DNA from: Alphaproteobacteria bacterium
GTDB taxonomy: Bacteria; Pseudomonadota; Alphaproteobacteria; Micropepsales; Micropepsaceae
DNA: 64,000 nucleotides
Direction: 5' to 3'
Assembly (NCBI GenBank): GCA_947467345.1
Contig: CANIHD010000003.1
Location: 62,001-126,000, forward strand
Position numbers and translations under genes: made by a program
Notes under the pieces: model-generated
What the model saw: the letters and a program-made list of their open reading frames with translations, nothing else
What the model was told of the DNA's origin: nothing
The model's database searches: none
In this document: positions 9,300 to 51,669 of the stretch, one piece after another
How positions within the stretch are numbered: position 1 is the first letter of the stretch
Layout: every line of letters begins with the position of its first letter

Positions 9300-9516
9300 C
9301 CCATCTGTCATTGGACCTGAGAGATTTGACCCGGCACCATCCGTGAAGCGGATGAGTGTTCGGGTTTACCCCTTCGGTGAGCGCGCGCGTATTGCGCGCA
9401 CCACTTTCCAGATTGTCATACCCCCCGCGGTCCTTTTGCCTGAGAGTTTCCGGGGCGGTTGCTCCTTCGGCGCCCTCCTAGCCATGCAGCATCGGAGGAT
9501 CTCTCCCGCGGGGTAT
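9300..9516 (-). promoter_or_regulatory. Tandem glycine riboswitch
   Basis: Two glycine aptamers are visible in tandem on the minus strand. The first (about 9417-9516) has CGGGAGAG at the 5' side, the core GCGCCGAAGGAGCAA and the closing AACTCTCAGGCAAAAGGACC, with a GC-rich P1 stem. The second (about 9300-9412) has CACCGAAGGGGTAAACCCG and ATCTCTCAGGTCCAATGACA. These match the known glycine riboswitch consensus. Glycine binding is expected to raise expression of the gcvT-H-PA-PB operon directly downstream. Confidence 0.95.
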
Positions 9517-9638
9517 CGAATGACGGGCCAAGGAACCGGCGCCTCTCGGCGGAGCCCCAGGGTCCAAGGATCATAGAGGGGGGGCGATATGAGTCAATTC
9601 GCGAGGGCGATTGCCCACAGGCGGCGGAACGCCGCGCC

Positions 9639-15144: not shown

Positions 15145-15738
15145 ATGGGCTCGTTCAAAGACAACCGGGTCAACGAAGGCGAGAGCTTCCTTGAAGGCAA
15201 GCTTCTGATCGCGCTTCCCGGCATGGGCGATGAGCGTTTTGCCCAAACCGTGATCTATATGTGCGCACATTCGGCCAAAGGCGCGATGGGCATTTTCATC
15301 AATAAGCCGATCCCCGGCCTGTCATTTCTTGATTTGATGAAGCAATTGGAAATTCAAACGGCATCCAACATGCCGAATTTTCCGGTTCTCTATGGCGGGC
15401 CGGTCGAGACAGGCCGCGGATTCGTTCTGCATAGCGAAGATTACGAGAGCGCCGATTCCACCCTGCCGGTGTCCGAAGATATTTCGCTCACCGCGACGCT
15501 GGATGTGTTGCGGGCGGTCGCTGAGGGACGGGGACCAAAGCGGGCTTTATTCGCCCTCGGCTACGCCGGCTGGGGCCCCGGACAGGTGGAAACCGAATTC
15601 CGCGCCAATGGATGGCTCCACTGCGAAGCCGATGCCAATCTGATTTTCGCCGCCGACCCCATGGTCAAGTGGCGCGGCGCATTGGCGCGGCTCGGAATCG
15701 ATCCGATCGGTCTTTCTGCCAGCGTCGGAAGTGCGTGA
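15145..15738 (+). CDS. YqgE/AlgH family protein (UPF0301)
   Basis: The 197-residue product is at family length. Recognised by SFLEGKLLIALPGMGDERFAQ, GIFINKPI, YGGPVETGRGFVLHS and GYAGWGPGQVETE, the conserved blocks of the AlgH (DUF179) family. The biochemical role is not settled; AlgH was linked to alginate regulation in Pseudomonas. It is transcribed alone, and its end lies 10 bases from the convergent CBS gene. Confidence 0.93.
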   Translation: MGSFKDNRVNEGESFLEGKLLIALPGMGDERFAQTVIYMCAHSAKGAMGIFINKPIPGLSFLDLMKQLEIQTASNMPNFPVLYGGPVETGRGFVLHSEDYESADSTLPVSEDISLTATLDVLRAVAEGRGPKRALFALGYAGWGPGQVETEFRANGWLHCEADANLIFAADPMVKWRGALARLGIDPIGLSASVGSA

Positions 15739-15748
15739 CAGGCGCGCT

Positions 15749-16186
15749 TTATGGCGCGCCCATCACCACATATTCCCGCAAGGTCTGCGTTTCGATCTCA
15801 GCATCGGCGATACGGCTCTTCACGACGTCGCCGATAGAGACGAGTCCGAGCAAACGTTCGTCGTCAAACACAGGCAGATGACGGAAGCGTCCACGCGTCA
15901 TGGTCTCCATGACATCCTCAATCGAATCCGATTCGGCGCACGCGACAACTTCGCGTGTCATATAAGCGCGCGCTTCGCGCTGCAACGCTGCCGAACCGTC
16001 ATTCGCCAGAGCACGCACGATATCGCGCTCGGAAAGAATGCCGATCACACCGCCGGCGGAACCGATGACGAGCACAGCACCTATTCTGCGTTCGCTTAAA
16101 ACTTTGACGACGTCCGAAATCGACATGTCGTCTGTGACGCTTACGACGTCACGGCCTTTCTCGCGCAAGATATGAGACACAAGCAT
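15749..16186 (-). CDS. CBS-domain pair protein
   Basis: The product has 145 residues and consists of little more than two CBS repeats, about residues 10-65 and 78-135 (GVIGILSERDIVRAL and RLLGLVSIGDVVKSRI). A stand-alone Bateman module normally binds an adenine nucleotide or similar ligand and acts as a sensor; the partner is not evident. A near-perfect Shine-Dalgarno (AAAAGGAGG, 16194-16202 on the minus strand) lies 7 bases before the ATG. Upstream come a structured leader and a well-formed promoter, so it is probably expressed on its own. Confidence 0.93.
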   Translation of the reverse strand: MLVSHILREKGRDVVSVTDDMSISDVVKVLSERRIGAVLVIGSAGGVIGILSERDIVRALANDGSAALQREARAYMTREVVACAESDSIEDVMETMTRGRFRHLPVFDDERLLGLVSIGDVVKSRIADAEIETQTLREYVVMGAP

Positions 16187-16202
16187 GGGATTGCCTCCTT
16201 TT

Positions 16203-16288
16203 CAGGGGACGGTCTCAATCCCACGCCGCAGTTCTGTTGCCGCAACTCGCGTGGGCCGGGTTGCAACCGGGACCGACCCCAACATCCT
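16203..16288 (-). promoter_or_regulatory. Structured 5' leader of the CBS gene
   Basis: Between the predicted transcription start and the ribosome-binding site the minus strand folds well. CCCACGC and GCGTGGG pair (16249-16255 with 16220-16226) around inner pairing, and the 10-base palindrome GGTTGCAACC (16259-16268) stands ahead of them. It could be a regulatory leader; it does not match a riboswitch class that I recognise. Confidence 0.4.
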
Positions 16289-16294
16289 ACGCAA

Positions 16295-16323
16295 ATTATC
16301 CGCCTCGGAATTCATCAGCACAA
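16295..16323 (-). promoter_or_regulatory. Sigma-70-type promoter of the CBS gene
   Basis: On the minus strand TTGTGC (-35) and GATAAT (-10) are separated by exactly 17 bases. Transcription would start near 16288, about 100 bases before the CBS gene ATG. Both boxes are close to consensus for housekeeping sigma. Confidence 0.55.
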
Positions 16324-16488
16324 GTCACGTTTAAGAATTCAACAAACAGCGGAGAAAGAAATCGCTTGGCTCCGCAACCAATTTTCGCAGCGCCGCAATC
16401 GAACTTCGTTCAATAAACGCAATGCAATTACGCTATGCGCGCATGAAACTGCGTTGCAGCGCGAATATTCATTTTGAAATGGGATGTA

Positions 16489-16517
16489 TTGACACCCCGG
16501 GTGATTGGGAAAATGAT
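16489..16517 (+). promoter_or_regulatory. Possible plus-strand promoter in the gene-free stretch
   Basis: A perfect TTGACA at 16489-16494 is followed, after 17 bases, by AATGAT, which is a weak -10. If real, transcription would begin near 16524 and run to the terminator at 16803. Confidence 0.35.
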
Positions 16518-16698
16518 TTGATGGTCGCTTGAGGTGATCGCTTATGTGTTTTGATGTTGTCGTCGCGTTCGAATCTTTCGGATTGTCGGAAGGTCCGGGT
16601 ACTGATGGTGACCAGACCCGTTGCGCGGCAGGAGCAACGCGGACACGAAGCGAAGAGCGCTCGCGGCATACGTAACGTAAACCGAAAGGAGGCTCCGT

Positions 16699-16776
16699 AT
16701 GGAGAGTACGCCACCTAGTATAGACCATGGACTCCGCTCGCGAGCGGGGTCAGGCGAGGCCAAAACTGGATCGTGA
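16699..16776 (+). CDS. Possible 25-residue leader peptide or small protein
   Basis: The ATG at 16699 lies 6 bases after AAAGGAGG (16685-16692), among the best Shine-Dalgarno sites in the window. The ORF encodes MESTPPSIDHGLRS and then RAGSGEAKTGS, and stops at TGA inside the left arm of the terminator stem. The peptide is hydrophilic with no membrane segment. CTCC-GTAT-GGAG around the ATG could fold into a small hairpin and mask the start. The function is unknown, and it may be an attenuation-type leader or a chance ORF. Confidence 0.3.
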   Translation: MESTPPSIDHGLRSRAGSGEAKTGS

Positions 16777-16803
16777 CTTACGTAAGTTCGATCGCGATTT
16801 TTT
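16769..16803 (+). terminator. Rho-independent terminator in the gene-free stretch
   Basis: GATCGTGACTTA pairs with TAAGTTCGATC with one small irregularity, and a run of six T (16798-16803) follows after GCGA. It directly overlaps the end of the 25-codon ORF. Confidence 0.55.
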
Positions 16804-16805
16804 CT

Positions 16806-16940
16806 GCGGCCGACAATTGAATCAGACCAGCGGACAAGAAACGCACATGCGTTCTTACCGCACCAAAGCCCGACTTGGTTGGGCAAGAGCAATGCTCTGA
16901 AACCTTGTCCACGCAATGCGTCGGCGGGGTTTCTATTTTG
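16806..16940 (+). ncRNA. Candidate structured RNA: four adjoining hairpins
   Basis: Four stem-loops follow each other almost without spacing: 16830-16861 (GCGG/CCGC plus an AAGAaACGCA/TGCGTTCTT stem), 16868-16884 (GCCCGAC/GTTGGGC, loop TTG), 16886-16898 (AGAGC/GCTCT) and 16899-16933 (GAAACC/GGTTTC with an inner ACGC/GCGT). The last is followed by TTTCTATTTTG, so the plus strand is the likely sense. No coding frame explains this. It is not a tRNA, and I could not match it to 6S, SRP or tmRNA consensus features. Confidence 0.4.
16899..16940 (+). terminator. Terminator-like final hairpin of the candidate RNA
   Basis: GAAACCTTGTC pairs with GGCGGGGTTTC using several G-T wobbles, an inner ACGC/GCGT stem closes the loop, and TTTCTATTTTG follows. 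It also lies just beyond the 3' end of the convergent GGDEF/EAL gene, but has no T-run in that direction. Confidence 0.45.
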
Positions 16941-16967
16941 TGTTCAGCGATATCAAAAGCAGCGAGC

Positions 16968-19904
16968 CTATTTCGCGTATCGCATCGTGATGAACGCGTT
17001 GACATCGGCAGCAGGCAACGGCGCGGAAAATAGATAGCCTTGCCCCAATTCGCAGCCCAGCGCGGCAAGACGCTCGGCCTGCTCTTTGGTCTCCACGCCT
17101 TCGGCGACCACTTCGAGCCCAAGCTCGTGCGCGAGCCCAATCATGGACGTGATCATGGCGTCGCCATCTTTCGCGCTGCGCGACAGAAAACTCTTATCGA
17201 TTTTGACGCAGGTGAATGGAAAACGACGAAGGTGACTGAGCGAGGAATGGCAGGTCCCGAAATCGTCGACCGCCAAACCGACGCCCATATCTTTCAGCCG
17301 CGTTAGCCGCGATTCCGCCGCGGCGGAATCGGCCATAACGGCGCTTTCGGTAATTTCGAGACGAAGCGTGCCGCGCGGGAACGTCGCCTTCTTCAGCAAT
17401 TTCTCCAACTCTTTGGCAAAGGCGTCGTCGGCAATCTGCCGCCAAGCAACATTGACGCTGACGAAGAGCGGCGGTGTGAGCGGAAAATAACGCTGCCAGC
17501 GCTTGAGTTCCGTTGCTGCATTCTTCAACGCAAGCTGGCCAAGGGTAATGATAAGTCCGGTGCGTTCGGCGTGCTCCACAAAACGCTCCGGTTCGATCAA
17601 ACCACGCTCCGGATGCGCCCAACGCAGCAGCGCCTCAAAGCCTGCAACGCTGCCGTCCTTCAGGCGAATGATCGGCTGGTAGTGGAGTAGAATCTCGCCG
17701 CGCTCGAGCGCCTGGCGAAGATCGGCTTCCAGCGCGACGGGATCGACTTGCCCGGCCGATGAAATTTCACGCGAGTAAATTTGCGCGCGCGCCCCGCCGC
17801 CGCGTTTCGCGGCGACCATCGCGCGCTCGGCCTGCGCCAATAGATCCGGGCCGTCTGTCGCGCCAACGCCTGCCGCCACGCCAACGCTGACGGGCAAATA
17901 AATATCGCGCCCCGCCACCGGGAATGGCCGGCTCATCGCGCGAACAATAGCTTGTCCCAACGCCTTCATGTCGGCGCCAGGTTCCAAGACCAGCACGAAG
18001 CTGTCGCCGCCGATGCGATAGATCATCGCGCGCGGCAGACCTTGCGTCAGGCGCTGCGCTACGGCCTTCAACAGTGCATCGCTGCGATCAGGGCCGAGAC
18101 TGGCATTGACGGATTTGAAGCGATCGAGGTCAAGGATCGCGACCACCACATCGCGAAGGCGCGCCCCCGCAGAATCCAAATATTCCGACAAGGCCGTGCG
18201 CGAGCCCACGCCTGTGAGCGCGTCGCTGCGCGAAGACGGCGGAACGTCGGTGGTCTTGCGCGTGGTGATGTCGGCGATGAGGCCGAGGCAACGTTCGGAA
18301 TTGTGCCCCTTCCCTCGCATCGTCGCGCGCAGTTCGTACCAGCCGAGGCGCCCGCCCGGTCCTTTCGCGCGAAACTCAAGACGGAACGCTATCCCCGCCT
18401 GCCGGCGATAGGTTGCGATGGCGCGTTCATAGGTAGCGCGGTCGTCGGGATGAATACGTTGCAGCAGCGCATTGGCGTTCAATTCGGTGATGCCATCCGG
18501 TAGTCCCAGAATACCGGCCCCCTCCGGCGACAGCGACAACAGGCCGGAATTCAAATCGAGATCAAATATGCCTTGATGCGCGGCGGCGACGGCCGCGTGC
18601 TCGCGCGTTTCCGCCAACACTTCGTCGGTGGTTTCTTCCTGAATGTCGTCTTCGCCATGCGCCTGGCGCATAGCGCGAAGCCGCGCAACGCTCGGCTCTG
18701 CCGCCGCCGAAGCTGCCGCCATCGCCACCAATATGGCGCCGACCGAGGAAAACCCGGCAATGGCCGCGGGCGCCACGAGATTGATGCCGAATAACCCAAG
18801 GGCGCGAAATGAGGCCACTGCCGTGATTAGCGCGAAAATCGTGGCGGCCGGCGCAAGGCGCCGCGCCGCGGCCACGCCCAAGCGCCCGCAATGCGCGAGG
18901 TATCCTGAAGCTCCCGCAGCGCCGACCACAGCGAGAAAGCGCAGGAACAATCCAATTCCCGGCACACCGAAGAAGGATGCAAAGCCCAGAACCACGATGA
19001 TGATGGCGGCGCGGTCCGCCCACAGGCGCGCCCAGGAACGGAATGCTTCATAGGGCGCGACGTGGTCGATCAGGCGGACGCCTGATGCGATGACAAGCGA
19101 GAGCGCCAAGGAAAATAGCGCATAGGGCCCGCCGATGGCCGTCAGCCACGTATCATCGAAAACGCGCGCCGAAACGAGATCGGCGAATAGCAGCGATGCC
19201 GCCAGAAACGCAGCCCATTTCGCAAACGGACGGCGGCCAAGCACGGCGACACCGGCCGCAAAAGCCAGCGCTCCAGTGAAGAGTCCCGCAACCATTCCCG
19301 AAAGAACCGCGCTGCGGCTGTTATGTGCGATCAGTGCGGATTCCGTCCAAGCCAGAACTTCGGGATGGGCCGATGCACCGGCAAATTGCAGCGCCAAGGT
19401 CGAACGGTGAGCCGCCGGAATGACAATGCGAAAGGCGTTTTCACCAAAGGCGGTGGCGCGTTCTACGACCAGCTCGGGGTCAGATGCCGCCACCTCGCGC
19501 AAAACGGGCCGCGTCTGCAGAGGCACGAAGGCCACACCTGCCGCCGGCGACTCCGCCGCAACCAGCACACGCGCAATGGGACGCGGCGAACGATTCTCAA
19601 CCGTGAGCGTGAACCAAGCACCGCCCGCCTCTTGAGGATCGCTGACACGGCCGTCGGAAAGTACGGAACCGAGAGTGATCACCGCGGCCGGCGCCGAAAG
19701 ATCGGCCGCCGGGAATCCGGCCACCTGTGATTCAGATTGCAAGGCGGGCTGCGCGTCATCGGCCGCCATGGCGGCGGGAACGCTCAAAGAAACGCAGGCT
19801 GCAAACGTCGCCAGCAAAATGCCGGCGGCAAAGCGCCGCCGCAAAAAAAGAAACGCGGAGCCGATCACGCCGGAACGCAATGTTTGCGGGTGAAACAATT
19901 TCAC
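16968..19904 (-). CDS. Membrane-bound PAS-GGDEF-EAL c-di-GMP protein with degenerate GGDEF
   Basis: The product has 978 residues. A signal-like segment lies near residues 25-48, a periplasmic domain near 50-195, several membrane helices near 200-400 (7TM-DISM-like layout), PAS near 440-548, GGDEF near 560-710 and EAL near 720-975. The GGDEF motif reads GGDSF (632-636), so the glutamate is lost and cyclase activity is doubtful. The EAL domain keeps FEALLRW, the ITES glutamate, DDFG (then TC instead of TG), KIDKSF and AEGVET, so phosphodiesterase activity is likely. The start is GTG at 19904, 3 bases after the acetyltransferase stop, suggesting coupling. Confidence 0.92.
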   Translation of the reverse strand: MKLFHPQTLRSGVIGSAFLFLRRRFAAGILLATFAACVSLSVPAAMAADDAQPALQSESQVAGFPAADLSAPAAVITLGSVLSDGRVSDPQEAGGAWFTLTVENRSPRPIARVLVAAESPAAGVAFVPLQTRPVLREVAASDPELVVERATAFGENAFRIVIPAAHRSTLALQFAGASAHPEVLAWTESALIAHNSRSAVLSGMVAGLFTGALAFAAGVAVLGRRPFAKWAAFLAASLLFADLVSARVFDDTWLTAIGGPYALFSLALSLVIASGVRLIDHVAPYEAFRSWARLWADRAAIIIVVLGFASFFGVPGIGLFLRFLAVVGAAGASGYLAHCGRLGVAAARRLAPAATIFALITAVASFRALGLFGINLVAPAAIAGFSSVGAILVAMAAASAAAEPSVARLRAMRQAHGEDDIQEETTDEVLAETREHAAVAAAHQGIFDLDLNSGLLSLSPEGAGILGLPDGITELNANALLQRIHPDDRATYERAIATYRRQAGIAFRLEFRAKGPGGRLGWYELRATMRGKGHNSERCLGLIADITTRKTTDVPPSSRSDALTGVGSRTALSEYLDSAGARLRDVVVAILDLDRFKSVNASLGPDRSDALLKAVAQRLTQGLPRAMIYRIGGDSFVLVLEPGADMKALGQAIVRAMSRPFPVAGRDIYLPVSVGVAAGVGATDGPDLLAQAERAMVAAKRGGGARAQIYSREISSAGQVDPVALEADLRQALERGEILLHYQPIIRLKDGSVAGFEALLRWAHPERGLIEPERFVEHAERTGLIITLGQLALKNAATELKRWQRYFPLTPPLFVSVNVAWRQIADDAFAKELEKLLKKATFPRGTLRLEITESAVMADSAAAESRLTRLKDMGVGLAVDDFGTCHSSLSHLRRFPFTCVKIDKSFLSRSAKDGDAMITSMIGLAHELGLEVVAEGVETKEQAERLAALGCELGQGYLFSAPLPAADVNAFITMRYAK

Positions 19905-51511: not shown

Positions 51512-51669
51512 TTTCCTCCCCCGTTTACGGGGGAGGTGTCTGCCAGGCAGACGGAAGGGGGAAGCCATTTATTCCGTCGCTTTAGATACGCAGCGTTTGC
51601 GTCCCGCCCCCTCCGCCTCACCGGCATTTCGCCGGCTCGGCACCTCCCCCGCTTCGCGAGGGAGGAAAG
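51512..51669. repeat. Dispersed palindromic intergenic repeat
   Basis: The element begins TTTCCTCCCCCGTTTACGGG and ends GCTTCGCGAGGGAGGAAAG, so its ends are inverted copies. Inside are paired blocks (GGGGGAGGTG with CACCTCCCCC, TGCCAGGCAGAC, CCGGCATTTCGCCGG). It fits a roughly 160-base family of repeats that, as I recall, is common between genes in alphaproteobacteria and resembles REP or MITE elements. No transposase is linked. It lies after the PAP2 gene and before the end of the convergent propeller-like gene. Confidence 0.75.

Follow-up and report, generated by a model that had tools for sequence, protein, structure and literature searches.

Four stem-loops follow one another on the plus strand of a 64,000-nucleotide stretch of alphaproteobacterial DNA (hereafter "the window"), between a CBS gene and a GGDEF/EAL gene. 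Is this run of hairpins a structured RNA with a gene of its own, a part of one of the neighboring genes, or a product of chance? A preliminary description made from the sequence had proposed a new structured RNA, either a trans-acting small RNA (sRNA) or a long 3' element of the adjoining unit. Folding, homolog searches, covariation and genomic context bear on these choices as described below.

The four-hairpin segment

The minimum free energy (MFE) and centroid folds of 16806-16945 on the plus strand give exactly the stem-loops of the preliminary description: hairpins A (16830-16861), B (16868-16884), C (16886-16898) and D (16899-16933). The T-rich run that had been reported after the fourth stem-loop is present as well (TATTTTGTGTT). 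The segment folds with an energy of -52.3 kcal/mol, compared to -39.1 +/- 3.4 kcal/mol for its dinucleotide shuffles (z -3.9), and none of the 200 shuffles was as stable; the minus strand folds less well (z -2.4). When the whole 64 kb was scanned by composition-corrected regression, the plus-strand segment at 16826 ranked 12th of 6386 overlapping 140-nt windows, with a score of -3.38 versus an ordinary -0.73 on the minus strand. This corresponds to about the seventh place among independent 140-nt segments, on the plus strand only; thus the pairing goes beyond chance yet is not unique in the window. Segments at 51526, 14406 and 28906 (-) are among the other 140-nt segments that outrank this one in fold stability over the composition expectation.

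As the preliminary description had stated, the pairing is not explained by a reading frame: no frame in the 780-bp gap (16187-16967) carries the genome's codon-usage signal. A 57-aa ORF spanning the hairpins (16727-16900, +) was rejected, with no relatives found and no coding signal. The G-U pairs of hairpin D vanish on the minus strand, and its stem is followed by a U-rich tail, so that hairpin D with this tail (16899-16940) reads as a plus-strand intrinsic terminator.

Extent of the predicted transcription unit

A sigma70-type promoter sequence, TTGACA-17-AATGAT, is located on the plus strand at 16489-16517. It is the sole TTGACAN{16,18}WATNAT site in the 64 kb, where 0.07 would be expected, and has the top promoter score of the region (12.25; background, 0.14 per kb at scores of 9 or more). 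Transcription is predicted to start near 16524, giving an RNA of ~415 nt that would end at about 16940. The structured RNA proposed earlier is therefore upheld but its boundaries are not: the unit reaches ~310 nt upstream of 16806, a part that had been missed, and the four hairpins make up no more than the 3' domain of this ~415-nt unit (16489-16940).

The upstream part contains a Shine-Dalgarno sequence (SD), AGGAGG (16687-16692, +), placed 6 nt upstream of the ATG of a short ORF, MESTPPSIDHGLRSRAGSGEAKTGS (16699-16776, +). Conserved Thr-Pro-Pro codons occupy 16708-16716, and a further stem-loop identified by folding, hairpin 1 (16730-16751, +), begins 13 nt past the second Pro codon. The codon-usage signal is absent from this ORF in the window. 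A weak internal hairpin followed by T6 (16770-16803, +), seen by sequence and fold, is a candidate early terminator of the window copy only, and termination there could possibly give a ~280-nt form of the RNA; T6 is missing at the matching position in the homolog G001. Two other candidate features were discarded: a small stem-loop spanning the start of the ORF (GAC-GCC/GGC-AGUC), missing in several homologs, and a second copy of the RNA at 16345-16472, unsupported by the improved covariance model.

Homologs in two genera

BLAST-type searches yielded weak matches only and no homolog in 60 relatives, in the 96 genomes of the family and in 385 of the class; the matches that were inspected were scattered and mostly within coding sequence. 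The same type of search gave one 37-nt match in phages (E 0.5) and none in plasmids. Covariance models were more productive. A model built on nothing but the window sequence identified a homolog in the same genus (G001, E 4e-5). Folded by itself, G001 forms these four hairpins again (z -6.4). A two-sequence model found G004 and G017, the latter from another genus. A pattern search directed at the short ORF gave G034 and G036; the exact pattern occurs at five true loci among 96 genomes, and a reversed-pattern control gave none. A four-sequence model applied to 40 family genomes regained the prior homologs and added G005, G009, G014, G020, G023, G030 and G032.

The total is 13 loci including the window, distributed over two genera: four of the seven genomes of the window's genus and nine of the eleven of genus g4. 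The preliminary description had named lack of conservation among relatives as a refutation of its proposal, and the recovery of these loci by covariance models answers that point. The models did not find the RNA gene in G002, G003 or G006 of the window's genus, or in the other genera searched; several of the close genomes in which it was not recognized, e.g., G002, are nearly complete. Eleven model matches (in G002, G007, G015, G016, G018, G024, G028, G029, G031, G033 and G062) were rejected as false, having no SD, ORF start, hairpin 1 or TTGAC box and resembling ordinary gene or rRNA terminators. Also rejected were a pattern match in G070, which is out of frame inside a coding gene, and matches of the ORF pattern in viral contigs, which lie within coding genes.

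Covariation of the hairpins

Absence of covariation was the second refutation named in advance; instead, the base pairs covary strongly. The 13 sequences, all distinct, were aligned by fitting to the covariance model, which is a caveat to the figures that follow; model-based alignments were used because MAFFT misaligned the hairpins. Pairing is preserved in 88% of the cells (73% when shuffled), 65 cells are changed on both sides (20 when shuffled), and the covariation score is 0.458 (0.187 when shuffled), none of 500 shuffles being as high by any of these measures. Sliding the partners by 1-3 columns lowers the pairing to 34-45%. RNAalifold, given the same alignment, recovers hairpins B and D.

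The individual hairpins differ in how well they are preserved. In hairpin A, the outer pairs are kept in 92% of the cells and all three covary. Hairpin B is paired in 98.9% of the cells with compensatory changes at four pairs, and hairpin C in 61% overall, with chiefly the inner pairs kept. Hairpin D is paired in ~90% of the cells and also shows compensatory changes, but it is the least independent part of the evidence since the covariance-model search selects terminators. For hairpin 1, an alignment made by hand reveals compensatory changes, a weaker test than that on the 13-sequence model alignment because the hairpins were chosen by eye.

Conserved features upstream of the hairpins

The TTGAC box, SD, ORF start and hairpin 1 all lie outside the covariance model, and all are present at each of the 13 loci. 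The TTGAC box is found 90-213 nt, and the SD 4-11 nt, upstream of the ATG. The ORF start has the form M(xx)[T/A]PP throughout: MTPP or MESTPP, and MEDAPP in G001. The residue X that follows Pro-Pro is G, D or E at 12 of the 13 loci and S in the window (PPS); the G/D/E preference may simply reflect a kept G at the first base of the codon. Codon changes at Thr-Pro-Pro are almost all at third positions. Hairpin 1, folded separately, begins 11-13 nt past the second Pro codon at all 13 loci; a 6-nt difference in the distance from AUG to Thr-Pro-Pro (G000, G001, G005) is in frame and leaves the spacing between Pro-Pro and hairpin 1 unchanged. The AUG-to-terminator distance is 232-271 nt in all 13. 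Past MTPP the ORF is poorly conserved, and the peptides, 11-29 residues long, have little in common.

Comparison with known RNAs

The preliminary description had recognized no Rfam class in the hairpins, and a search of 16500-17300 gave no Rfam 15 match at E values up to 10. The G001 homolog gave only sub-threshold, chance-level matches to Rfam. The ubiquitous stable RNAs, 6S RNA, SRP RNA and tmRNA, are alike in size range and in being free-standing genes, but the first two are both found elsewhere in the genome, ARAGORN finds no tmRNA gene in the window, and none of the three matches at the hairpin locus.

Certain bacterial sRNAs have a dual function and an embedded short ORF: SgrS/SgrT, RNAIII and SR1. 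Like the window RNA, these are free-standing, promoter-driven and intrinsically terminated, a few hundred nt long, with an SD, a short ORF and a structured 3' part. The window RNA has its own promoter, intrinsic terminator and free-standing position, as judged from sequence, and a ribosome-binding site and short ORF that are conserved at all 13 loci, with conservation confined to the ORF start. It differs from the three in that the conserved part of its peptide is only Met-Thr-Pro-Pro and the spacing from Pro-Pro to the hairpin is fixed, and it has no sequence or structure match in Rfam. A literature search for dual-function sRNAs in Alphaproteobacteria gave only a survey of small proteins in Sinorhizobium; one for the peptide starts MTPPGS, MTPPDS and MTPPES gave no match except an unrelated chemistry paper.

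A second comparison is with leader peptides containing proline codons, such as mgtL of Salmonella; leaders regulate the downstream gene in cis. As in mgtL-like leaders, a short ORF with early Pro codons lies just ahead of an RNA structure, here at all 13 loci. Unlike mgtL, the window RNA has no same-strand gene downstream (the GGDEF/EAL gene is convergent), nor do most of its homologs, and membership in this class fails because there is no gene in cis to regulate. By analogy, the window RNA might work like either a dual-function sRNA or a Pro-codon leader, and it may belong to the former class. Related work concerns uORFs (PMC8092293) and EF-P and coupling (PMC5021804).

Proposed function and alternatives

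The conserved folds, together with a conserved very short ORF in 13 genomes, make this probably a real regulatory RNA that also engages the ribosome. With moderate confidence, we assign it to an undescribed sRNA family of at least two genera, encoded by a free-standing plus-strand gene and most likely dual-function or translation-responsive. The family, missed by BLAST and absent from Rfam, has good comparative support, from 13 genomes and from covariation.

The sequences Pro-Pro-Gly, Pro-Pro-Asp and Pro-Pro-Glu (PPG/PPD/PPE) slow ribosomes and are EF-P-dependent pause motifs. When the second Pro codon occupies the P site, the front edge of the ribosome lies ~15-16 nt from the first base of that codon, and hairpin 1 begins where this edge would fall. 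A ribosome translating the short ORF, Met-(Glu-Ser)-Thr-Pro-Pro-X, would slow at Pro-Pro against hairpin 1, and the slowed ribosome may alter the 3' domain with its four hairpins in stability, processing or availability; that domain would be the stable and probably regulatory part of the RNA. Points against this reading are the weak conservation of the ORF past MTPP and its lack of a codon-usage signal in the window, the PPS of the window copy, and the fact that neither close genomes such as G002 nor other genera yielded the gene. The transcription, translation and pausing in this scheme, and any target of the RNA, are predictions from the conserved features described above.

A special case, which we put forward tentatively as unlikely but possible, is that the RNA is a free-standing sensor of Pro-Pro translation, i.e., of EF-P activity or prolyl-tRNA supply. 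The pause at Thr-Pro-Pro-X, with the front edge of the ribosome at hairpin 1, would then determine what becomes of the regulatory 3' domain, a separate part of the RNA, in place of acting on a downstream gene. If true, a Pro-Pro micro-ORF at a fixed distance from a hairpin, in an RNA that no gene follows, would represent a ribosome controlling an sRNA, not a leader controlling a gene, a case that is directly testable.

The chief rivals of a dual-function or translation-responsive sRNA are a trans-acting RNA that escapes translation and a messenger for a micropeptide. In the first, the SD/AUG-like GGAGGnnnnAUGACGCCACC would be a conserved unpaired seed or a protein-binding site and the ORF incidental. 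This is doubtful but plausible: the RNA structure is the best-supported feature of the locus, and past MTPP the ORF is highly variable and without a codon-usage signal. However, such an RNA does not readily account for an SD and AUG that are workably spaced in 13 of 13 loci, for third-position changes and an in-frame length difference at Thr-Pro-Pro, or for the preserved spacing between Pro-Pro and hairpin 1. In the second, the micropeptide would be the sole product of a small messenger, and the 3' hairpins would serve only to stabilize and terminate the transcript. The conservation of the SD and MTPP start in all the homologs and the intrinsic terminator at the 3' end fit such a messenger, which we nevertheless consider improbable, as peptides of 11-29 residues show little similarity past MTPP, and hairpins A and B, which precede the terminator, are maintained through compensatory changes.

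A cis-acting leader, or a 3' element of a neighboring gene as the preliminary description had allowed, is very improbable and is already contradicted. Although short ORFs are common in untranslated leaders and a same-strand gene does lie downstream in G001, G004 and G009, the CBS and GGDEF/EAL genes of the window are both on the opposite strand, and every copy of the RNA comes with a promoter box and a terminator of its own. In most homologs the next gene is convergent, and the neighbors vary, some g4 genomes having a flank in common. Since the genes downstream vary from locus to locus and most of them are convergent, the RNA is a free-standing gene and not a leader. Least probable of all is that the hairpins stand in a row by chance, the last being an ordinary terminator and the model matches being other terminators: weak matches do include gene and rRNA terminators, and a few other window segments fold equally strongly, but the SD-MTPP ORF, hairpin 1 and TTGAC box common to the 13 loci outside the model in effect refute it, and hairpin B covaries.

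Genomic setting

In most of the ~27 relatives inspected, the genes for AlgH (15145-15738, + in the window) and the GGDEF/EAL protein (16968-19904, -) converge with nothing between them. In the window, they are separated by the CBS and RNA genes (15739-16967), a segment that was therefore gained or moved here. In several relatives (L064, L068, L073, L075 and L077), the CBS gene adjoins an apparent tRNA-Ser gene, identified by eye, an arrangement not shared by the window. The window's only Rfam match at the gathering threshold is a glycine riboswitch aptamer at 9418-9518 on the minus strand (73 bits).
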